Shown here in pieces: positions 13,198 through 24,034 of a stretch of 35,586 nucleotides of DNA. The stretch lies in the NCBI GenBank assembly GCA_022361395.1, contig JAKSAX010000606.1, positions 1-35,586 on the forward strand, written 5' to 3'. This DNA is from Desulfobacterales bacterium (lineage in GTDB: Bacteria > Desulfobacterota > Desulfobacteria > Desulfobacterales > Desulfobacteraceae). Made by a program: the position numbers and the translations under genes. The notes below the pieces were generated by a model. It was not told the origin of the DNA. It ran no database searches and was given only the letters and a program-made list of their open reading frames with translations. The first letter of the stretch is position 1. Each line of letters opens with the position of its first letter.

Positions 13198-13746
13198 ATG
13201 AGAATCATCAGCGGAGAATGCAGGGGCAGAAAACTGGTTCAGATCCAGGGCCGGGATATCCGGCCCACTTCGGACAGGGTGAGAGAGGCCCTGTTTAACA
13301 TCATCGGCCCGGCCATCAGGGGCTGGCGGGTACTGGACCTCTTTGCAGGCACAGGCGCCTTCGGCCTGGAGGCATTAAGCCGGGGTGCCGATGCTGCCGT
13401 GTTTGTTGAACTGGCACAGAGTTCCTGCACCGTTATTAATAAAAATATAGACCTGTGCCGGATGAAAGAGCGCACGACCCTGGTCCGCCATGACCTGGTC
13501 ACCCGCCCGCTGCCCCGGTCCCTTGGCAGCTTTGACCTGGTCTTCATGGACCCGCCCTATGAAAAGGGGCATGCGGAAACCGTGCTGGCTAAAGAGGGGT
13601 TTATTGATCTTTTAAACCCCGGTGCCATCGTCATCGTGGAGCAGTCTTTCAAGGAATCCCTTGCCAATCCCCTGAACAGGCTTGACATTTACCGTCAAAA
13701 AAAATACTCAAAGACATTTGTTTCCTTTTTGCGTGAATCTGCCTAA
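13198..13746 (+). CDS. rsmD: 16S rRNA (guanine966-N2)-methyltransferase RsmD
   Basis: SAM-dependent methylation of G966 in 16S rRNA. The 182-residue protein has the RsmD start MRIISGECRGRKL, RPTSDRVREALFNII, the SAM-binding VLDLFAGTGAFGLEALSRG, and the N-methylation motif DPPY at 118-121. Length is usual. It starts 5 bases after the regulator's stop and is followed closely by coaD, the common rsmD-coaD pair of many bacteria. Confidence 0.94.
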   Translation: MRIISGECRGRKLVQIQGRDIRPTSDRVREALFNIIGPAIRGWRVLDLFAGTGAFGLEALSRGADAAVFVELAQSSCTVINKNIDLCRMKERTTLVRHDLVTRPLPRSLGSFDLVFMDPPYEKGHAETVLAKEGFIDLLNPGAIVIVEQSFKESLANPLNRLDIYRQKKYSKTFVSFLRESA

Positions 13747-14276: not shown

Positions 14277-15173
14277 ATGGCTATGGACCTGTGGCAGCTT
14301 CATATCTTTGTATCTGTGGTTGAAAAGAAGAGTTTTTCAAAGGCATCAGAGACCATTAATCTGTCCCAGCCCACGGTTTCCACCCATATCAAAGAGCTGG
14401 AAGAGCATTTCCAGTGCCGACTTCTGGACCGCCTGGGCAAAGTTACCGAGCCCACCCGGGCAGGTCTTATTCTCTATGATTATGCCAGGCGCCTGCTGGC
14501 GCTCAGGGATGAAACCCAGAGCGCCATGCTGGATTTTCTAGGTCACACCAAGGGCAGCCTGGTTATGGGCGGAAGTACCATTCCTGCCGGTTATATCTTC
14601 CCGAGGCTCATGGGGGCGTTTAAAAAAGCCTACCCGGATGTTTCCATTTCACTGTCCGCAGGGGATACCAGCCAGATTACCGAGGCAGTGAAAGACGGCA
14701 GCCTGGAGCTGGGTGTGGTAGGGGCGCGCATTGATGATCCGGCCATTGGCCAGGAAAAACTGGTCAGGGATGAAATGAAACTGATTGTGCCGCAAAACCA
14801 CGAATGGGCGGGCCTCTCTTCCGTTTCCTGTGACAAATTATTCGACCAGCCCTTTATTGCAAGGGAAAAGGGGTCAGGCACCTGGCAGTCTATTCTGAAG
14901 AGCATGGACGAGGCAGGGTTCAACTCCCAGGACCTTGTCCCCAATGTAACCATGGGCAACTCCATTTCAGTTATCCAGGGAATTCTCAACGGGGCGGGCA
15001 TATCCATTCTCTCCACCATGGCTGTGGCAGAGGAACTTCGCACCAAAAGACTGTTTGCCCTGCCTGTGGAAGGACTGGACCTTACCCGGTACTTTTACCT
15101 GACCCTGTCAAAGAAGCGGAGCCAGTCTCCCATCTGCCGGAAATTCATCGATTTTGCAAAAAACAATATCTGA
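14277..15173 (+). CDS. LysR-type regulator, selenium-metabolism-associated type
   Basis: A 298-residue LysR regulator: winged HTH in the first 65 residues (SFSKASETINLSQPTVSTHIKELEEHF, which places the recognition helix around SQPTVSTHI), then a periplasmic-binding-like effector domain starting GSLVMGGSTIPAGYIFPRL. The MDLWQLHIFVSVVE opening and GGSTIPAGYI stretch match what I recall for the LysR group that accompanies selenium metabolism in Deltaproteobacteria and Clostridia. GAGGAGG lies five bases before the ATG. It ends the housekeeping cluster and lies just before the AT-rich island. The effector and target genes cannot be read here. Confidence 0.83.
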   Translation: MAMDLWQLHIFVSVVEKKSFSKASETINLSQPTVSTHIKELEEHFQCRLLDRLGKVTEPTRAGLILYDYARRLLALRDETQSAMLDFLGHTKGSLVMGGSTIPAGYIFPRLMGAFKKAYPDVSISLSAGDTSQITEAVKDGSLELGVVGARIDDPAIGQEKLVRDEMKLIVPQNHEWAGLSSVSCDKLFDQPFIAREKGSGTWQSILKSMDEAGFNSQDLVPNVTMGNSISVIQGILNGAGISILSTMAVAEELRTKRLFALPVEGLDLTRYFYLTLSKKRSQSPICRKFIDFAKNNI

Positions 15174-15311
15174 AGTCTGCAGCTATATATTTGGCGTAGA
15201 AAACTCCAAACTAACTTAAATCTCTATGATAAAAGAAGTAGTGAATGGCAACACTTTGCATTTCCAACTATTTCTTTTTAAGAACCATAAATTAGAGCAA
15301 AGCAACTCTTG

Positions 15312-15383
15312 ATAGCTATATATTTTGTTGACGCTAACTTCAATCAAAGGTAAAAACTAATCATATTTGGAATGCATAGCTAT
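15312..15383 (+). promoter_or_regulatory. Promoter and repeated ATAGCTAT palindromes upstream of the methyltransferase cassette
   Basis: ATAGCTAT occurs at 15312-15319 and 15376-15383, and a related AGCTATATATTT occurs at 15181-15192 and 15314-15325. Between the two palindromes lies TTGACG (15328-15333), 17 bases, TAAAAA (15351-15356), a plausible promoter. The second palindrome would lie in the leader just before the TTG start at 15400. This arrangement suggests autoregulation of the cassette, but no controller gene is apparent. Confidence 0.35.
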
Positions 15384-15399
15384 AAGGTAAAGTTTAATT

Positions 15400-16461
15400 T
15401 TGATAAAAGTATTTGATTTTTTCTCAGGCTGTGGTGGAACAAGTAAAGGGTTTAAAAATGCTGGATTAGACCTTATCTGTGCTATTGACAATGATTCTGA
15501 TGCGGCAGCGACATATGAACATAATTTCCCCGATACAACTTTTATTAATCAGGATATCACCCAAATTGATACCGAAGAAATATCAAGTCATATTAAATCC
15601 TGTCAGAATGCCCCCATTTTGTTTAGCGGATGTGCTCCATGCCAGCCGTTCTCAAAACAAAAAACACAAAAGAAAGATCAAGACCATAGAATATATCTTC
15701 TTAATGAATTTAAGCGCTTTGTTGCAAAGTATCTACCTCAATATATTTTTATTGAAAATGTCCCAGGTTTACAAAAACTATTTAAAAAAGATAGCCCTTT
15801 TGAAACATTCCTTACTTTATTAAAGAAGCTGGGTTATTTTTATGATTACTCTGTTATCACCTCACAATCCTTTGGAGTTCCCCAACGAAGAAAGAGACTT
15901 GTTTTGGTCGCAAGTTCCTTAGGGGAAATAAGCATTCCGAAACCAGCCTGTGACCCGGAAAATGGCCTCGGTGATTATTCAACTGTGAGGGATTGGATAG
16001 AGGATCTACCAGCGATAAATGCAGGAGAAGAACATGCACTCATTGCAAATCATAGGTCTGCTGCATTATCAAATAAAAATCTTGAACGAATTCGAAGAAC
16101 TCCTGAGGGAGGGAACAGACTCAATTGGCCTAAACATCTATGGTTGAAATGCCATCTAAACGGGTATAAAGGGCATACAGATGTATACGGTCGAATGAAG
16201 TGGGATGAGCCAGCTACAGGTTTGACGACAAGATGCATAAGTCTATCCAATGGAAGGTTCGGGCATCCAGATCAAAACAGGGCGATCAGTATCCGTGAAG
16301 CAGCATGTTTACAAACATTTCCAATGGATTTTATATTCAAAGGCAACCTAAATTCCATGGCAAGACAAATAGGGAATGCCGTTCCGGTAAAATTAGCTGA
16401 AGTTTTTGGCACTCACATTCTAAAGCACTATAGTGATATTCATGGCAAGATTCAAAACTAG
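15400..16461 (+). CDS. DNA (cytosine-5)-methyltransferase
   Basis: A 353-residue C5 methyltransferase with the canonical motif order: I, FDFFSGCGGTSKGF (5-18); IV, GCAPCQPFS with catalytic C81; VI, ENVPG from E119; VIII, QRRKR from Q162; a target-recognition region between about 190 and 290; X, RQIGNAVPVKLAEVFG near the end. It should methylate a specific double-stranded site; the site cannot be read from sequence. The start is TTG, since a stop lies four codons upstream in frame and the N-terminus matches the family at this codon; AAGG is 12 bases away, so translation may be weak. Its 3' end overlaps the next gene by 20 bases. Codon use and AT content differ clearly from the flanks. Confidence 0.93.
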   Translation: MIKVFDFFSGCGGTSKGFKNAGLDLICAIDNDSDAAATYEHNFPDTTFINQDITQIDTEEISSHIKSCQNAPILFSGCAPCQPFSKQKTQKKDQDHRIYLLNEFKRFVAKYLPQYIFIENVPGLQKLFKKDSPFETFLTLLKKLGYFYDYSVITSQSFGVPQRRKRLVLVASSLGEISIPKPACDPENGLGDYSTVRDWIEDLPAINAGEEHALIANHRSAALSNKNLERIRRTPEGGNRLNWPKHLWLKCHLNGYKGHTDVYGRMKWDEPATGLTTRCISLSNGRFGHPDQNRAISIREAACLQTFPMDFIFKGNLNSMARQIGNAVPVKLAEVFGTHILKHYSDIHGKIQN

Positions 16462-19405
16462 AGCAAGGACAATAGATCTATTAGGTCGCCAGCAAATTGC
16501 TGGAATCCCTACAGCAATTAGTGAGCTATTTAAAAACGCTCACGATGCTTATGCTGATAATGCACAAGTGGATTACTTTCGCTCTGATGGACTTTTCGTC
16601 CTTAGAGATGACGGCGTCGGAATGACAAGAGAAGACTTTGAAACACGTTGGCTTACCATTGGAACAGAAAGTAAAGTTCAAGGACTGTCAGGAATAACTG
16701 CTCCCTATGCCCCACCCAATAAACCTCCAAGAGTCACAATGGGAGAAAAAGGAATAGGGCGTCTTGCAATAGGAGTTATTGGTCGCCAAGTTCTTGTTCT
16801 TACACGTGCAATCAGAGAAGATGGACTTAAGGATGTTGTTGCAGCATTTGTAAACTGGGGTTTCTTTGAACTTCCTGGAATTGATATTGAAGATATTGAA
16901 ATTCCAATTAAAATTTTCCCAGGAGGAACCTTACCCAATATAGACGACGTAAACTCGTTAGTCGATATTGCGAGAGCTAACTTGGAAAATCTATCATCTC
17001 ATATTAGTGAAAGTTCTTTTCAAAAAATCCAAACTGAGCTTGATGAATTTATTGCAGATCCTGAAGATTTAGAATCATTTACAGATGGACCACAACTGTC
17101 TGGTAACGGTCATGGAACTCATTTTTACATATTACCGTCAAATGAAACAATACCTTTAGATATTGATGAAGAAAACAGCCATGATGACAATCCCCTTTTT
17201 ACAAAGTTTCTTTTAGGTTTTTCCAATACTATGACAACAGAGCATACCGCTCTGCTGAGAACTGAGTTTAGGGATTGGAAAACAGATGCTCCTGATGATT
17301 TTAAAGAATTAATAGGTCCTTCTGAATTTTTCACTCGCGAAGAATTTGATAATGCAGATCATCATTTTCAAGGCTGGTTCGACGAATATGGACAATTTTC
17401 AGGAACCATAGGGATTTATGGACAAAACCCTGTCAGTCATGTTGTCCCTTGGGGAAAGGCCGCTGGTCGAAAAACACTTTGTGGTCCCTTTAACTTGAAT
17501 TTAGCTACAGTTCAAGGAGCCTTTCGGGAAAGTAGTCTATCTCCAGAAGATTATGCGAGAATAAGGAAAAAGTTAAAAAAAATCGGAGGGCTCTACATAT
17601 ACCGAGATGGTATTCGAGTCTTACCATATGGAAACCACGATGTCGATTTTTTGGAGATCGAAAAGCGCCGAACCAAAAGTGCAGCCTACTATTTTTTCTC
17701 ACACAGAAATATGGCAGGTGCAATAGAAATCACAAATAAAACCAATAAGAGGTTAGTTGAAAAAGCAGGTAGAGAGGGATTTCAACATAATAAAGCATAC
17801 AGACAATTTTGTGATATACTATCAAATTTTTTCATTCAAATTGCTGCTGATTTTTTCCGAGCAGATGGTCTCAAATCAAATGATTTCATTGATAAAAGAG
17901 AAGAGTTGAATAAAATGGATGCCGCACGAAAAAAAGCGGCAAGACAGTCGAAAACCAAAAGAGATAATTTTGCATCATCACTTGATAAAATTTTTATAAA
18001 AATTGAGCAAAATAATCCCCAGGTTCAGGTCCAGAAATTAATTCGTAAAATTGAGAATTCTATTCAAAAAGCAACTAAACAAAAAAATCCAGATTCTGCA
18101 GCTGCGATCTTAATTCGAGCAGAGAATAATGCTAAAAAGGGGTTGGATTTAATAAAAAATGAGTACAAAATTTCACGCCCTCGTGGTGTAGGACTAACAA
18201 AACAACTCGTCAGAGATTGGGATGCCTATAACGGAGAATACAATAGGCTTTGTCGTGAAACATTTGAGCCAGCTGAAATCAATGTAGCTGAGATAATTGG
18301 TGAGTCTGCGAAACAAGCACGTTTATATGTAGATCAACGTAAACGACTTGAAATTTTGTTGAAACAAACTTCAGAAAGATCCGTGAATAAAGTAAAGTCA
18401 AAGGCAAATGAAACAAAATCTTCTTTGGAAAAGACACAAACAAATGTACAGAGCCTATTAAGATCAAGTCTTGCAGAAATACAAAACCTTATTAGCAAAA
18501 CCGAAATTGATTTTCAAAAAACAAATTTAGACGACATGACTTTGGATGATATTGAACAATTACGCATAGATATAGAGCAGAGAATCAATAACGCCGCAAT
18601 GAATCATGAAGACACTCTGGAAAGCGTAAAAAATCAACTAGATATCATTCAATTTTCCAGAGATAGCAATGGATTACTTATATCTCAAACAGACATGCTC
18701 GCGGCCCAAGAAGATGAACTACTTGCGATTAGAGAGAATATAGAAACAGATCTTGAACTGACACAACTGGGTATGGCCGTCGACATTATCAACCATGAGT
18801 TTAGTAGCTCAATTAAAACGATTCGAGCGAATATACGAAAGCTAAAAGGCTGGGCTGATATAAATGAAGATCTTACTCCGTTATATAAAAATATAAGAAG
18901 CAGTTTTGAACACTTGGATGGTTACCTATCTCTTTTCACTCCTCTTCAGAGGCGACTTTACCGTAACAAAAGTAATATTACCGGTGCGAATATCGCAAAC
19001 TTCGTTGCAGATCTTTTTAAAGAACGACTTAAAAGACACAATGTTAAATTAATTGTTTCTACAGACTTCAAGAAAGTATTAATTAAAGGCTACCCTTCAA
19101 CATTTTATCCAGTTTTCGTTAACCTTATTGATAATGCGATCTTTTGGATAAAGAATAATTCTGAATCAAAAAAAATCACCTTAGCCTCTACAGGAGGGTC
19201 ATTTTTAATTCAAGATAATGGTCCGGGGATTCCAATAAGAGACAAAAATGCTGTATTTGAAAAAGGTTTTACGCGGAAGCCCGGTGGACGAGGCTTAGGT
19301 CTATTTATTTCAAAAGACGTATTGCAAAAATCAGGTTTCGATCTATCGATCGATAGCTCCTATTCCAACGGCACTAAATTTATTATTGGGCCAATCGACA
19401 ATTAA
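16442..19405 (+). CDS. Double-GHKL ATPase: Hsp90/MORC-like N-domain plus C-terminal histidine-kinase domain
   Basis: A 987-residue cytoplasmic protein with two separate GHKL ATP sites. The first is near the N-terminus: N-box E28-x3-N32-A-x-D35 in SELFKNAHDAYAD, G1 DDGVGM (56-61), G2 GEKGIGRLA (101-109), as in HATPase_c_3 proteins related to MORC, Hsp90 and MutL. Residues about 470-760 are charged and largely helical, probably coiled coil. The C-terminus is kinase-like: H785 in IINHEFSSSI (an H-box without the usual Pro), N-box NLIDNA (894-899), DNGPGI (925-930), and GGRGLGLF (948-955). No nuclease motif or membrane segment is seen. The ATG at 16442 is preferred over GTG at 16433. It is followed after 18 bases by a receiver protein, its likely phosphorelay partner. 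Confidence 0.85.
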   Translation: MARFKTRARTIDLLGRQQIAGIPTAISELFKNAHDAYADNAQVDYFRSDGLFVLRDDGVGMTREDFETRWLTIGTESKVQGLSGITAPYAPPNKPPRVTMGEKGIGRLAIGVIGRQVLVLTRAIREDGLKDVVAAFVNWGFFELPGIDIEDIEIPIKIFPGGTLPNIDDVNSLVDIARANLENLSSHISESSFQKIQTELDEFIADPEDLESFTDGPQLSGNGHGTHFYILPSNETIPLDIDEENSHDDNPLFTKFLLGFSNTMTTEHTALLRTEFRDWKTDAPDDFKELIGPSEFFTREEFDNADHHFQGWFDEYGQFSGTIGIYGQNPVSHVVPWGKAAGRKTLCGPFNLNLATVQGAFRESSLSPEDYARIRKKLKKIGGLYIYRDGIRVLPYGNHDVDFLEIEKRRTKSAAYYFFSHRNMAGAIEITNKTNKRLVEKAGREGFQHNKAYRQFCDILSNFFIQIAADFFRADGLKSNDFIDKREELNKMDAARKKAARQSKTKRDNFASSLDKIFIKIEQNNPQVQVQKLIRKIENSIQKATKQKNPDSAAAILIRAENNAKKGLDLIKNEYKISRPRGVGLTKQLVRDWDAYNGEYNRLCRETFEPAEINVAEIIGESAKQARLYVDQRKRLEILLKQTSERSVNKVKSKANETKSSLEKTQTNVQSLLRSSLAEIQNLISKTEIDFQKTNLDDMTLDDIEQLRIDIEQRINNAAMNHEDTLESVKNQLDIIQFSRDSNGLLISQTDMLAAQEDELLAIRENIETDLELTQLGMAVDIINHEFSSSIKTIRANIRKLKGWADINEDLTPLYKNIRSSFEHLDGYLSLFTPLQRRLYRNKSNITGANIANFVADLFKERLKRHNVKLIVSTDFKKVLIKGYPSTFYPVFVNLIDNAIFWIKNNSESKKITLASTGGSFLIQDNGPGIPIRDKNAVFEKGFTRKPGGRGLGLFISKDVLQKSGFDLSIDSSYSNGTKFIIGPIDN

Positions 19406-19423
19406 TCAAATCTGGGACAAACA

Positions 19424-21145
19424 ATGAACCAAACAACTCAATATGAAAATTTCTTTGACCACTCAAAATCAATCGTTCAAAATTTTTTAACGACAGCTGT
19501 TGTTATCGATGATCGTGCTATGTTCGGACCTCGGGAAACAAAAGGCATGAATATGGCTCACCAACACAAAAAAGAACAGCCACCAATCGTTTTACAAAAA
19601 ACCAAAACTCGCAAAAGAGGAAAAACGAGAGCATCTTATGATGAGACGATAGAGAAGGAGCCTTCCCGACAAGAGGATGGAGATGATGTATTTGAATTCT
19701 CACATGATTTAAATGCTAAAGAAATAATTCAAAATTTTGCCGAAAAAAAAATCATTTGCTCCGTATTAAAGCCGGAGGAACAAGATTTAGAACGTTTAAA
19801 TGAGACCGTTCAACTGGTTGGACAAACCGCAGATTTAATAGTACTCGATTGGCAGCTGTTCCATGAATCAGGTGATAAAACGCTTGAATTAATAAGGGAA
19901 ATAGTGACCCATAGTCTCTCGGGAACCCCTAAACAATTGCGATTAATTAGCGTATATACCGGTAGCCGACGTATAGATGAAATTTTTGATAAAATTGCAA
20001 AAGTTCTGAAATCTTTTGCCCCTTTTAAGCTTAACTCAAACACAGATAAATTGATTCATACAATAGGATCTTGTCGGATCATAGTTCTGGTTAAGGAGGG
20101 TATTGATGTTTTAGAATTTCATAGCGACAAAATAGTTCCATTTTCTAAATTAGCAGATAGATTAATAGAAGAATTTACAAAAATGACTTCTGGTCTACTG
20201 TCGAATGTAGCTATGGACAGTTTTTCCGTCATTCGACAAAATACACATAAAATTCTTACAAAGTTCTCCCCAGATTTGGATGCTCCTTACCTAAACCATC
20301 GTTCCTGCCTGGACTATCCACCAGACTCCAAAAGACACATCGAACAAATAGTTTCATATGAATTAGAATCTCTCTTGGAGGAACATTCCGTTGGAGAGAA
20401 AGCGCAACTGTCTAAAATCAAATTGTGGCTAAAAGACCAGATAATCAAAAATGGAGAATTTTGCACCTTAATTGAGCCCAAAAAATCAAACCCTGATTGC
20501 CAAGAAATTCAACTCGATGATATAATTGATATTCTTAGTAAAGGTATTGATAATATTAAATCGCCGAAAATAGGGAAAAAAAATGCGTTTAATAAATTAA
20601 CCTGTGTCTATGCTGACCCTACACTTAAAAATGATTATTTGGATCACAAATATGCAGCCTTAACAACTCTAAAATCGTATTACTCCGATATCTCACCTAA
20701 ATTAGCTCTAGGCTCAATACTATCATCTTCTAATAATGGAGATGTGCGTTACTGGCTATGCTTACAGCCAAGATGTGATAGTGTCCGCCTACAAGGGAAA
20801 CAGAGAGGTTTTCCCCTTTTACCTTTGCTGGAGACGGGTAAAGGTATAAAACTAATACTACCCATTGAAAAGGATGAGTATAAAATATTTACCGTCTCCT
20901 TACGACCTCATATGTGTAAAGTTATAGAATTTGTCCCAACAAATGAAGATGATGAGATTGAAGCAATAAAAATAGAAAAAGATACTTTTATATTTTTAGA
21001 TAATTTAAATTCAAAATACAAATGGATTGCAGAACTAAAATTTGAGTTTGCTCAAAGAATAGCAAATAAATTTGCTACCGAAATATCAAGGGTTGGAACA
21101 GATAATTCGGAGTTTTTAAGACGTTGGGAAAAGAAAAGTGGATAG
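19424..21145 (+). CDS. Receiver-domain protein with unknown C-terminal domain (Response_reg_2-like)
   Basis: A 573-residue soluble protein. The N-terminal 230 residues keep every receiver catalytic position: acidic pair D29-D30 (VVIDDR), phospho-acceptor D142 (LIVLDWQLF), T179 (SVYTGS) and K224 (VLVKEG). Between the first strand and the rest there is an insertion of about 80 residues with a basic patch (KTRKRGKTR). Residues 230-573 match no domain I know; a conserved-looking stretch is YWLCLQPRCDSVRL followed by FPLLPL. I recall receiver families of this build next to GHKL ATPases in conflict systems, but could not check. No HTH or nuclease motif is evident. It is probably phosphorylated by the upstream kinase and acts as the switch or effector. 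Confidence 0.75.
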   Translation: MNQTTQYENFFDHSKSIVQNFLTTAVVIDDRAMFGPRETKGMNMAHQHKKEQPPIVLQKTKTRKRGKTRASYDETIEKEPSRQEDGDDVFEFSHDLNAKEIIQNFAEKKIICSVLKPEEQDLERLNETVQLVGQTADLIVLDWQLFHESGDKTLELIREIVTHSLSGTPKQLRLISVYTGSRRIDEIFDKIAKVLKSFAPFKLNSNTDKLIHTIGSCRIIVLVKEGIDVLEFHSDKIVPFSKLADRLIEEFTKMTSGLLSNVAMDSFSVIRQNTHKILTKFSPDLDAPYLNHRSCLDYPPDSKRHIEQIVSYELESLLEEHSVGEKAQLSKIKLWLKDQIIKNGEFCTLIEPKKSNPDCQEIQLDDIIDILSKGIDNIKSPKIGKKNAFNKLTCVYADPTLKNDYLDHKYAALTTLKSYYSDISPKLALGSILSSSNNGDVRYWLCLQPRCDSVRLQGKQRGFPLLPLLETGKGIKLILPIEKDEYKIFTVSLRPHMCKVIEFVPTNEDDEIEAIKIEKDTFIFLDNLNSKYKWIAELKFEFAQRIANKFATEISRVGTDNSEFLRRWEKKSG

Positions 21146-21159
21146 TTTTGCCTGATTTT

Positions 21160-21615
21160 ATGTCTCAAGAGCAACGGAGTCGGGCTATGTCAAAAGTCCG
21201 AGGCAGTAACACTAAACCCGAAAAGGCGATCCGGTCATATTTACACGCTAAAGGTTTTCGTTTTAGACTTCATTGCGCAAATCTTCCAGGTAAACCAGAT
21301 ATTGTTTTAAAAAAATACAATGCTGTTATTTTTGTGCATGGATGTTTTTGGCATAATCACAGAGGCTGTAAAAAAGCGACTTTCCCTGAAACACGGAAAG
21401 AATTCTGGAAACAAAAAATTGGCAACACTGTTCTAAGGGACCGAACGAACATTCAGCATCTCACGGATTCCAACTGGAGAATTGCAATAATATGGGAATG
21501 CACTACGAAAAATAAACTTGTCCTTAAAAACGCGTTAGAGAATTTAACGTCGTGGCTTTTAGGAGATTCAAAATTCTTTGAATGCTCGAACCCCAATTAC
21601 CAAATAGAACTATAA
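21160..21615 (+). CDS. Vsr-type very-short-patch endonuclease
   Basis: Nicks DNA next to T:G mismatches that arise when 5-methylcytosine deaminates, or may act as a restriction nuclease in such loci. Motifs: RSRAMSKVRGSNTKPE, catalytic D47 in PGKPDIVL, and HGCFWHNHRGC with zinc-site residues C62, H67 and C70; a later Cys in IIWEC completes the site. At 151 residues it is of normal length. The frame is open back to a TTG at 21124 overlapping the receiver gene; I chose the ATG at 21160, 14 bases after that gene's stop, because it matches the family's N-terminus. Neither has a strong ribosome-binding site. It ends the AT-rich cassette. Confidence 0.9.
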   Translation: MSQEQRSRAMSKVRGSNTKPEKAIRSYLHAKGFRFRLHCANLPGKPDIVLKKYNAVIFVHGCFWHNHRGCKKATFPETRKEFWKQKIGNTVLRDRTNIQHLTDSNWRIAIIWECTTKNKLVLKNALENLTSWLLGDSKFFECSNPNYQIEL

Positions 21616-21672
21616 AACTTAGCTCTCAGATAAATCATTTTATGTGAAGATTAGAGAAATTTCCCAAAAGAA

Positions 21673-22521
21673 TCAATTCATAATCTGCCGTTGCTTCAGC
21701 ACAGGACCGGGATCTATTAGATGCCGCTTCAGCCAATCCCTGGGTGCTGATCCCTCCACGGCCAGTGACAGCAGTTCCGAAAAGTGAAACACCGGAATCC
21801 TGTTTTCAGGACGGCTCCGGATCTCCAGGTTCAGGTGGCACATGGCACAGGCGGTAACAATGCATTCAGCACCGGCATCAATGGCGCCGCTCATAATCCG
21901 GTTCACCAGTGTACCGGCAATTTCCGGACGGCTTACGGATAAAAAAGTCCCGCAGCATCTTGAATAAAACGGCCACTGAAGGGATTCCCCTCCCAGGGCA
22001 GCCATGTTTCTTTCAATGAGCCCGAAAAAATTTTTCTCCTTTTTCATCCGGGGCGGTCTTGCCAGCATACATCCGTAATAGGGGGCGATTTTCAAACCGT
22101 TCAGCCGGTCACCCAATCCCCTGAACGCCCCTGTTTCATCCATCTGCACCAGGAGTTCAAAAAAATGGAGCAATTCAAGATCCGGATTAAACGCCCGTCC
22201 GAACAAATCTTCATAGACCTTACGTTTTTCAGGGTGTTCATCCAGCTCGATTTTTGCCTGGTTCAGCCGCAGGAAACAGCCGGGGCAGGCTATCAGCAGC
22301 GGCCTGTCAGCCGGGGCAAGAAAAAGGTTCCGGGCGGCAAGGGAGAGCGCCAGGTCCGAGTTGATCATGTGGGTGGAGGACGATCCGCAGCAGTTCCAGT
22401 CCTCTATCTCCCTGAGGCGGATGTCAAACCGGTTTAAAAAGCGGTTTAACGAGGCGTTGTTTTCCTTGGCAGTGGTGGCAAGGGAACATCCGGGAAAGTA
22501 GCTCAACTCCAAATTACTCAT
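21673..22521 (-). CDS. hdrB: Heterodisulfide reductase subunit B-like protein (two CCG domains)
   Basis: A 282-residue HdrB-type protein. The first CCG domain has FPGCSLATTAKEN, NCCGSSS and ACPGC; the second has YYGCMLARPPR, SRCCGTFLS and TACAMC. These cysteines bind the noncubane iron-sulfur clusters at the disulfide site in HdrB. Its ATG overlaps the hdrC stop by four bases, so the two are translated together. In sulfate reducers HdrBC pairs take part in electron transfer to or from unknown thiol/disulfide carriers, often in electron bifurcation. No HdrA is seen in this window. It converges on the AT-rich cassette, with no clear terminator between. Confidence 0.85.
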   Translation of the reverse strand: MSNLELSYFPGCSLATTAKENNASLNRFLNRFDIRLREIEDWNCCGSSSTHMINSDLALSLAARNLFLAPADRPLLIACPGCFLRLNQAKIELDEHPEKRKVYEDLFGRAFNPDLELLHFFELLVQMDETGAFRGLGDRLNGLKIAPYYGCMLARPPRMKKEKNFFGLIERNMAALGGESLQWPFYSRCCGTFLSVSRPEIAGTLVNRIMSGAIDAGAECIVTACAMCHLNLEIRSRPENRIPVFHFSELLSLAVEGSAPRDWLKRHLIDPGPVLKQRQIMN

Positions 22522-23072
22522 ATTGCCTCCTTAGGAATACTGAACAGGGATTTTATCGATTTCCTGTCCTTCACCTTTGAGGGAAGCAGGTCAAGCTTTC
22601 GTCTGGACAGCATCTTCAGGCCCAGGTCTATATCTGAGAACAACTCTTTTTCAGAGAGCTTGTACCGCATCATTATTTCAAGTTTATGGGTGCGGCCATA
22701 CCGGCCAATGGAATCCACCACTGCATTGTGAAAGGCCAGAATACCGGGCTCTGCGATTTCCGCATTTTCACGAAGCGCCACCTGGCGCAGGGCATCCATA
22801 ACCCCTGCAATGTCAACGGCATTGGGACATTCCATGGAGCAGGTATTGCATCCGACACAGAGCCAGATTGTGGATGTCTTCAAGACCTCTTCCCTTAAGC
22901 CGAACTGGACCATCCGCAATACCGCATTGGGCATCACATCCATTTCCCGGGACAGGGGACAGCCGCCGCTGCAGGCCATGCAATGCCAGCACCGGCTTAA
23001 ATTCGCCCGGCTCATTTGCTCGATCCGTTCTAAAAATCCAAGATCTGTCTTTTCCGTCTCAATACACCCCAT
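22518..23072 (-). CDS. hdrC: Heterodisulfide reductase subunit C-like ferredoxin protein
   Basis: A 184-residue protein with two [4Fe-4S] motifs, CWHCMACSGGCP near residue 28 and CVGCNTCSMECPN near residue 72, as in HdrC. The C-terminal half is helical and charged without further motifs. It should pass electrons to HdrB, with which it overlaps by four bases. The ATG at 23072 has only GGGGC upstream. A perfect FNR-type palindrome lies 87 bases upstream, suggesting redox control of the pair. Confidence 0.85.
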   Translation of the reverse strand: MGCIETEKTDLGFLERIEQMSRANLSRCWHCMACSGGCPLSREMDVMPNAVLRMVQFGLREEVLKTSTIWLCVGCNTCSMECPNAVDIAGVMDALRQVALRENAEIAEPGILAFHNAVVDSIGRYGRTHKLEIMMRYKLSEKELFSDIDLGLKMLSRRKLDLLPSKVKDRKSIKSLFSIPKEAI

Positions 23073-23158
23073 ATTGCCCCGCTCTCTGTTTTGGTTTTCC
23101 GAAATGTACTTTTACCGGCCATACCCCGTCAGACTAAAAGATTCAGGCCCTTTGTTCA

Positions 23159-23172
23159 TTGATATAGATCAA
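23159..23172 (-). promoter_or_regulatory. FNR/CRP-family binding site upstream of hdrCB
   Basis: TTGAT-ATAG-ATCAA, an exact match to the FNR consensus TTGAT-N4-ATCAA. It is centred about 94 bases from the hdrC start codon. If it works at -41.5, transcription would begin near 23124. The site is the only such box I noticed in the window. Confidence 0.55.
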
Positions 23173-23260
23173 GAAAGGGATAATTCACTACCATATAAAT
23201 AAGCCGGTTCAGCGGGAATTCATTTAAAGTGCAGGCAACGGGGGGAAAAGGGGGTACGGA

Positions 23261-23283
23261 CAAAGAGGCAGGCCGCCTCTTTG
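23261..23283 (-). terminator. Terminator-like hairpin after the crotonase gene
   Basis: CAAAGAGGC and GCCTCTTTG (9 bases, perfect) around a 5-base loop, 28 bases after the stop codon of the minus-strand crotonase. It is followed by C-rich and not T-rich sequence, so termination efficiency is uncertain. Confidence 0.45.
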
Positions 23284-23311
23284 CCCGGCGAAAATATGTT
23301 CAGCCTGAAGA

Positions 23312-24034
23312 TCAGTCTGCCACAAACAGGTTCAGCGCATCTATGTACTCGGGGTCTTCTTCGTCAATGACACGGATAAGCTCCTTGTGCATCCGTTTTT
23401 TAAGCTCCTGGAAAATCCCCCGCTTTTTAGCAAAAGACCCGGCAAAGGCCAGTGCATCCGCCATCAGTTCTTCCTTGTTTTCACTGGCTTTGACAATAAC
23501 GTTGGCAGCGGCCAGTTCATCCGCAGTGACCCGCTGGCCGGACAGCAGCATCTGGTTGAAGCGGTATTCGGGAATGGCCTTGCGGACAAAGGCGAGCATG
23601 CCCGGCAGGAAGGGAATGCTCACATCCACCTCGGGAAAACAGAAAAAGCCCCTATCCTTTTTCATGAACCTGAAATCACAGGCACAGGAGAGAATGGCCC
23701 CGTTGCCGAATGCATGGCCGTTGATGGCGGCGATCACCGGTACCGGGAAGAGGATCAGGCGCTTGAAAATATTGTTCATCCCGTACATGAAATCAATGAC
23801 AGTCTGGTTTTCCCCGGTATGAAGCTTGCCGCCGATCCACTCCACATCAATGCCCTGGGAAAAGTTTTTCTCATCCGTGGATGTGAGGATAACCGCCTGC
23901 ACATCGGTGTCTTCAATCACCTGGTCCAGGCAAAGGTTCATATCTTTGGCAAAGGTTTTATTCATCCGGTTGGGACCGTTGCACATCTCCACGATTGCAA
24001 TATTTTCCTGCTTTCTCCATGTAATGACCGCCAT
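23312..24034 (-). CDS. Enoyl-CoA hydratase/isomerase family protein, isomerase-like
   Basis: A 240-residue crotonase-fold protein. The oxyanion-hole segment is INGHAFGNGAILSCACDFRF and the second active-site segment is FPEVDVSIPFLPGM. Of the two catalytic glutamates of enoyl-CoA hydratase, the first position is I114 and only the second, E135, remains. One Glu in this place is typical of delta3,delta2-enoyl-CoA isomerases, so I favour isomerisation over hydration. AAAGGAG lies six bases before the ATG. It is transcribed alone, divergently from hyuA, with a hairpin after its stop. Likely role: fatty-acid or related acyl-CoA breakdown. Confidence 0.8.
   Translation of the reverse strand: MAVITWRKQENIAIVEMCNGPNRMNKTFAKDMNLCLDQVIEDTDVQAVILTSTDEKNFSQGIDVEWIGGKLHTGENQTVIDFMYGMNNIFKRLILFPVPVIAAINGHAFGNGAILSCACDFRFMKKDRGFFCFPEVDVSIPFLPGMLAFVRKAIPEYRFNQMLLSGQRVTADELAAANVIVKASENKEELMADALAFAGSFAKKRGIFQELKKRMHKELIRVIDEEDPEYIDALNLFVAD

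Follow-up and report, generated by a model that had tools for sequence, protein, structure and literature searches.

Analysis of a stretch of 35,586 nucleotides from a Desulfobacterales bacterium (assembly GCA_022361395.1, contig JAKSAX010000606.1, positions 1 to 35,586, forward strand; hereafter, the window) revealed a cassette of four intact genes on one strand, at positions 15400-21615, encoding a C5 cytosine methyltransferase, a GHKL/HEF_HK kinase, a receiver protein and a Vsr endonuclease. With moderate confidence, we interpret it as a horizontally acquired immune cassette akin to restriction-modification (R-M) systems, triggered by a phosphorelay, in which the signalling pair fills the slot of the restriction enzyme, the role in defence being assigned by association. 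The window copy is a further member of the HEF_HK/Response_reg_2 modules, not a new kind. The initial annotation could not confirm a name for this exact set of four genes; the set had already appeared in print in 2021, in a computational study, the available text of which names both domains, describes their linkage to C5 methyltransferases and gives the position directly downstream of the receiver gene as the commonest arrangement for Vsr (Bellieny-Rabelo et al. 2021, PMC8011034). The modules described there (PF19191 and PF19192) resemble the window copy in combining HATPase_c_3, HEF_HK and HATPase_c, with a C5 methyltransferase upstream and Vsr downstream, whereas that text, as far as available, does not describe an output domain of the receiver. 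In the window and its relatives alike, the two signalling domains have a C5 methyltransferase nearby and, often, Vsr. What is new here is the count of a three-gene core, the invariance of residues, the MORC3/SMCHD1-type model, the output domain and the distribution in Escherichia coli.

Table 1. Features of the cassette and its surroundings, in window positions.
Feature	Position	Strand	Basis
C5 cytosine DNA methyltransferase, 353 aa, TTG start, PCQ motif C81	15400..16461	+	DNA_methylase Pfam 1.4e-61; dcm superfamily 4.7e-50
Kinase (HK-like), 987 aa: MORC-type ATPase module, helical linker, HEF_HK, C-terminal HATPase_c	16442..19405	+	Pfam, predicted model
N-terminal MORC/SMCHD1-like ATPase module, residues 5-483	16454..17890	+
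HEF_HK (DHp-like) domain; candidate phospho-acceptor H785 = 18794-18796	18764..18964	+	108.4 bits
C-terminal HATPase_c, kinase catalytic domain	19100..19387	+
Receiver (RR-like) protein, 573 aa	19424..21145	+	Response_reg_2
Response_reg_2 domain; candidate phospho-acceptor D142 = 19847-19849; acidic residue D29	19484..20098	+
Receiver C-terminal output domain, about residues 425-555: G430, C446, C451-D452, R455	20696..21088	+	Conservation, no Pfam family
Vsr endonuclease, 151 aa, ATG 21160	21160..21615	+	Vsr Pfam 1e-28
LysR-type gene, left flank	14277-15173	+
Fe-S pair (CCG-domain/4Fe-4S, heterodisulfide-reductase-like), right flank	21673-23072	-
Insertion versus four sister genomes: cassette and two-gene Fe-S pair, about 8.16 kb	15158..23315	.	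Sister alignments

The genes are tightly packed (Table 1), with an overlap of 20 nt and gaps of 18 and 14 nt, given ATG starts at 16442 for the kinase and 21160 for Vsr, and lie between convergent genes, namely, a LysR-type gene on the plus strand and an Fe-S pair on the minus strand. These spacings and flanks agree with the initial annotation, as do its residue numbers H785, D142 and C81 and its hand counts of G+C (21/60 at 17041-17100 and 38/60 at 13261-13320), which are exact. Overall, the cassette has a G+C content of 36.7% versus 51.1% outside, and 300 sliding windows of equal size beyond the insertion range from 48.8 to 53.2%.

Contamination had to be weighed because the source assembly (completeness 95.68%) consists of 611 contigs with 8.89% contamination. 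Alignments to the sister genomes L124-L127 end near window positions 15109-15163 and restart near 23314-23322, leaving roughly 9 to 130 bases at the empty junction. Given that both flanks are aligned in these genomes, the cassette resides in an insertion of about 8.16 kb (about 15158-23315) within an otherwise syntenic chromosome. The LysR-type gene of the left flank is present in 18 of the 19 genomes of the genus, the source genome counted, and the Response_reg_2 receiver domain was detected in none of the 18 other genomes of the genus searched (0/18), for which reason the four-gene cassette appears to have been acquired horizontally. The Fe-S pair within the insertion displays an ordinary G+C content of 52.2%, and a relative of this minus-strand pair (21673-23072) is found on another contig in the sister genome L128. 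A fifth sister, L123, shares the identical junction but carries about 10.5 kb of other sequence there (L123:1487-12042, 42.3% G+C); among the seven ORFs scanned in this filler are those for a Mutator-family transposase and a sigma-54 activator, as well as metabolic or regulatory genes, and the notion that the insertion site is a defence hot spot is, accordingly, unsupported.

A search of 395 genomes of the phylum with Response_reg_2 yielded seven matching genomes at E 0.001, five of them above the curated cut-off, including the source. The four other genomes above the cut-off all encode the methyltransferase, kinase, receiver and Vsr; in L017, the gene order is methyltransferase-Vsr-kinase-receiver, the genes still being together, and in L020, an HNH_2 gene lies between the receiver and Vsr. 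No cassette accompanies the two weak matches, L021 and L022, which were left uncounted. A single kinase sequence used as a query against genome contigs gave no match; a profile search of genome contigs (bacteria and archaea) gave 419 relatives, of which the best 80 were analysed, and, because the best 80 of 419 were kept, the analysed relatives lean towards the cassette's own subfamily. One of these, L092, apparently duplicates the contig that the phylum search yielded as L017.

Among the best 80 of 419, 44 loci have over 3 kb of sequence ahead of the kinase and over 4 kb behind it, and in this full-flank set the receiver (44/44) and the methyltransferase (44/44) are constant, as opposed to Vsr (25/44), the last two having been located by tblastn. 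The core thus comprises three genes, the methyltransferase, kinase and receiver, with Vsr as an accessory. The check on co-occurrence proposed in the initial annotation therefore came out very strongly, and its operon-like set of four families is a real grouping, although not one in which Vsr is a constant partner. The methyltransferase is missing in five of the best 80 of 419 (L032, L064, L080, L084 and L085), all of which are cut within 1.7 kb of the kinase on one side; those of L070 and L046 were located by tblastn. Any further neighbour family is limited to at most 5 of the 80 loci (best 80 of 419). Within the same best 80 of 419, the median gap between kinase and receiver is -4 nt, with 69 of 77 falling between -100 and 40; of the 73 methyltransferases placed, 65 lie upstream in the same orientation, 7 lie downstream in the opposite one and the last is located elsewhere, and the 30 Vsr genes placed are distributed upstream (12), downstream on the same strand (10) and downstream on the opposite strand (8). 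Distance matrices of kinase and receiver are correlated (r 0.79, 74 rows including the window) well beyond the top of 2,000 permutations (0.15), and the values for kinase and methyltransferase (r 0.49, 70 rows including the window) and for kinase and Vsr (r 0.63, 30 rows including the window) were reached by none of 2,000 permutations, in a test that ignores shared host ancestry and uses rows from the best 80 of 419. Because the correlation of the kinase with the methyltransferase is only 0.49 versus 0.79 with the receiver, specificity has apparently been swapped, and we read the kinase-receiver pair as a unit onto which methyltransferases of differing specificity would be attached.

The kinase combines, in one protein and all above cut-offs, matches to HATPase_c_3 (5.5e-13), HEF_HK (3.1e-30) and HATPase_c (8.3e-18). 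Its predicted model brings together the MORC3/SMCHD1 fold and the histidine-kinase fold, with the N-terminal half modelled as a MORC3/SMCHD1-type ATPase module, and the N-terminal GHKL and S5 module with ATP motifs that typifies MORC and paraMORC proteins is present. The receiver matches Response_reg_2 (3e-35) as its sole Pfam family, and its gene, with the conserved Asp, adjoins that of the kinase at a gap of 18 nt. The alignments used for folding comprised 67 receivers and 65 kinases of the best 80 of 419, plus the window; in the wider set on which the candidate phospho-acceptors were checked, H785 is retained in 81/81 kinases and D142 in 73/73 readable receivers (best 80 of 419 searched). 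The His-Asp pair H785/D142 is, accordingly, intact-looking at the sequence level. Of the earlier proposal of a modification or defence system with a phosphorelay, the operon-like set, the acquired look and this pair stand, whereas the constancy of Vsr does not (25/44, best 80 of 419).

The C-terminal part of the receiver contains a putative output domain, which tblastn located in 75 of the 80 loci (best 80 of 419); it is missing from L047, L064 and L085, which end at a contig edge, and, without explanation, from L087 and L101. In L032 and L037, the domain lies outside the receiver's reading frame. The kinase of L029 and, likewise, the receiver of L094 are split into two ORFs, apparently through frame changes or assembly errors. 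Among the 72 receivers with the output domain in frame (best 80 of 419), G430, C446 and C451 never vary, position 452 holds Asp in 70 and Glu in 2, and position 455 holds Arg in 71; R556, just past the domain, is Arg in 67 of 71 (best 80 of 419). Scans of the C-terminal part of five receivers detected neither PemK nor any other Pfam family beyond two matches at E 0.15-0.17, and a profile of the whole receiver had no match to solved structures up to E 1. A second lineage of receivers matches the ordinary Response_reg family below the cut-off (L015, 2.6e-6; L014, 0.002) or not at all (L016), and its members L015, L016 and L168 also carry the output domain (hhalign probability 95%, E 2.5e-8, 137 columns). 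Across eight diverse receivers, the sole invariant columns are M1, D29, D142, C451, D452 and R556, C446 not being retained in the second lineage. The candidate output domain with its C-D motif is thus in no Pfam model and common to two receiver lineages and, as one output domain occurs with two kinds of receiver, a true relay is supported.

Foldseek comparison of the whole receiver model retrieved E. coli MazF (5ck9) as the best match (E 0.013, prob 1.00, TM 0.65 by target length, 132 columns) and MazF 1ub4 as the second best, and MazF-type chains account for 10 of the 50 rows listed; no match attains E 0.001 among the matches listed. Because the match spans 132 columns and other matches account for the receiver part, we assign it to the C-terminal part, which would form a barrel. 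The matches listed by a second structural aligner are receiver-domain rows only and thus have no bearing on the output domain, and a search of a viral structure library was negative up to E 0.001. Alignment with hhalign to 14 PemK proteins reached a probability of 0.2%, with nothing for the output-domain profile, the second lineage or both joined. Sequence profiles (Pfam and hhalign) do not place the domain in the MazF/PemK family and, consequently, the model suggests at most a resemblance to the MazF fold, not family membership.

Judging by its family, the C5 methyltransferase is strongly predicted to mark the cell's own DNA, its DNA_methylase match being that of a modification methyltransferase of type II R-M systems. 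No cognate restriction endonuclease was recognised in the cassette by family matching, the only matches of this kind being to Vsr and to the ATPase portion of restriction-enzyme models; restriction endonucleases often escape family models. Vsr belongs to its family with the core conserved, and a profile of six homologues matches the E. coli Vsr structure 1cw0 (6.5e-41). As the effector nuclease, Vsr was rejected: it is present in only 25 of the 44 full-flank loci, was not found near L041, the closest relative (kinase 64% identical; both best 80 of 419), and is unannotated in the surroundings of the four E. coli cassettes inspected. A role in repair, as an accessory to the methyltransferase, fits Vsr better than one in the core or as effector.

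Variation among the relatives extends to both gene content and genomic setting. The second lineage (L014, L015, L016 and L168) has shorter kinases. On plasmids, such kinases (718-756 aa), which keep both ATPase domains, have as neighbours an Eco57I/N6 methylase together with an HNH gene (L014, Deinococcus) or an N6/N4 methylase (L016, Allorhizobium); in L168, Vsr is adjacent. In E. coli, the three-gene version occurs as two alleles, both counted by sequence coverage: allele 1 is present over at least 80% of its length in 205 of 5,426 complete genomes, about 4%, which makes for an easy bench test, and with any match in 231, all at at least 99% identity, and allele 2 over at least 80% in 7 genomes and with any match in 14. 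In the three strains viewed, allele 1 is part of an element that encodes an integrase and a relaxase and sits at a tRNA-Leu gene; the next gene, annotated as a phosphorothioated-DNA-binding restriction endonuclease, matches HNH_2, and the surrounding stretches have no annotated Vsr. This element (L170:10681-22603, L171 and L188) holds the three-gene cassette, the HNH_2 restriction gene, ArdC, a MobH relaxase and the integrase. HNH_2 genes downstream of the receiver were also seen elsewhere (L020:9452-10216, L049:13609-14391, L061:6927-7685 and L068:7544-8443), and this nuclease is possibly an optional restriction enzyme in some relatives. Among 14 viral contigs with a relative of the kinase, nine carry a full-length kinase together with the receiver and methyltransferase, and five of the nine Vsr too; within L149-L158, L151 and L152 look like near copies, the receiver of L152 being in two ORFs. 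Two Pseudomonas syringae plasmids of one strain (L012 and L013) share remnants of a cassette split between them, beside IS5/IS3 transposase genes. Mobility is thus apparent from the insertion in the window, the viral contigs and the integrative element of E. coli. PADLOC applied to 129 of 364 neighbour proteins and to 125 controls from other species matched 142 versus 81 families, a tally in which distinct proteins are uncounted, and mad3 had 7 control matches versus 3 neighbour matches.

In the proposed working, the methyltransferase would mark self DNA, and the MORC-type ATPase module of the kinase would act as an ATP-driven DNA clamp responding to unmarked or otherwise abnormal DNA. The long helical linker might convey clamp closure to the HEF_HK/HATPase_c core, leading to autophosphorylation on H785, as the invariant residues suggest, and the phosphoryl group would then pass from H785 to D142 of the receiver. 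Phosphorylation of D142 could, speculatively, free the output domain, whose target would be the cell itself or the invader and whose activity may be toxic or nucleolytic. Vsr, given its patchy presence, would be an accessory repairing T:G mismatches that arise from deaminated methylated cytosines. A bolder version, which we put forward only tentatively and consider improbable as it stands, is abortive-infection restriction gated by the phosphorelay, whereby the MORC clamp-kinase reads methylation and His-Asp transfer frees a barrel resembling MazF, its C-D motif forming a new active site; if true, this would be, to our knowledge, the first restriction-type system with an effector switched by a two-component relay.

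Several known systems share parts of this design. Detocs reportedly employs a His-Asp relay in phage defence, with a different sensor and effector and with neither a methyltransferase nor a MORC module; the effector domain that reportedly marks its output side was not recognised here, the receiver matching Response_reg_2 only. Very-short-patch repair by Dcm and Vsr likewise pairs a C5 methyltransferase with Vsr nearby, but without a kinase or receiver. MORC-type GHKL ATPases have been tied to R-M operons, with the N-terminal GHKL and S5 module and the company of cytosine methylases and Vsr as points of likeness; the available text, however, gives nuclease, TIR or unknown tails for paraMORC3-5, mentions no histidine-kinase core with a receiver partner, and describes SFII helicases as common in these operons (Iyer et al. 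2008, PMC2292703); here, SFII helicases are not among recurrent neighbours, no family outside the cassette exceeding 5 of 80 loci (best 80 of 419). The MORC family proper is, according to the same work, set apart by a sequence motif of its own. In VcSduA, a fusion of GHKL and Shedu nuclease, the GHKL module is likewise thought to control an effector, which, unlike here, is a fused PD-(D/E)xK nuclease and, in the text available, works without a phosphorelay (PMC12137116). A histidine kinase-like ATPase with a receiver domain is also named among the systems predicted by DefensePredictor, in a figure legend; the likeness is by domain names alone, and that system may not be of the HEF_HK family (PMC13092281). 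We found no experiments on HEF_HK or Response_reg_2 in the open-access literature, most subscription papers lying outside its coverage.

Instead of triggering defence, the kinase-receiver pair could regulate an epigenetic switch, sensing the state of DNA or energy and controlling the methyltransferase or host genes, with no killing and no cutting. The cassette has no recognisable restriction nuclease besides Vsr, none recurs beyond 5 of 80 relatives (best 80 of 419), and the receiver could work through binding; the available text of PMC8011034, moreover, speculates that the HEF_HK/Response_reg_2 pair controls R-M systems and reports induction of the Pectobacterium relatives in potato tubers, taken there as possible stress or competition. 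We nevertheless deem such a switch unlikely, as Pfam recognised no DNA-binding output domain, and the sparse spread (7 of 395 phylum genomes), the viral contigs and the integrative element suit conflict genes better. A type II R-M system with an ATP-dependent restriction complex, in which the GHKL protein with the receiver, or with Vsr, cuts unmodified DNA and phosphotransfer is vestigial or conformational, also appears doubtful to us. Residues 13-126 of the kinase do match the BbrUII/HgiDII restriction-enzyme model (7.9e-15, 54 bits against a model cut-off of 550), and the PADLOC check suggested in the initial annotation returned two partial REase_II matches for its ATPase part (one at 8.1e-8), leaving the receiver unmatched in PADLOC-DB; further, the methyltransferase is linked in 44/44 loci (best 80 of 419), and the VcSduA fusion has been shown to protect against phage (PMC12137116, from the text available). 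Such a complex is, however, at variance with the constancy of H785 (81/81) and D142 (73/73; best 80 of 419 searched), unlike that of a vestigial relay, and Pfam detected no known nuclease family in the kinase or the receiver; nor can Vsr be the general nuclease, as it is missing in 19 of 44 full-flank loci (best 80 of 419). That a common dcm-vsr repair pair merely happens to lie next to an unrelated two-component pair is hardly credible: Vsr does accompany C5 methyltransferases elsewhere, but co-occurrence (44/44 linkage, best 80 of 419), short overlaps, correlated divergence and the L017 reordering with the genes kept together refute it.

Under the favoured reading of an R-M-like immune cassette triggered by a phosphorelay, the relay, if real, would join restriction-modification, two-component signalling and the MORC/SMCHD1 ATPases. 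How the eukaryotic MORC/SMCHD1 ATPases read DNA is not fully understood; were phosphorylation to serve as the integral read-out of a prokaryotic MORC module, its trigger could be measured directly. What gives these findings value is that the output domain allows a testable prediction and that copies exist in E. coli.
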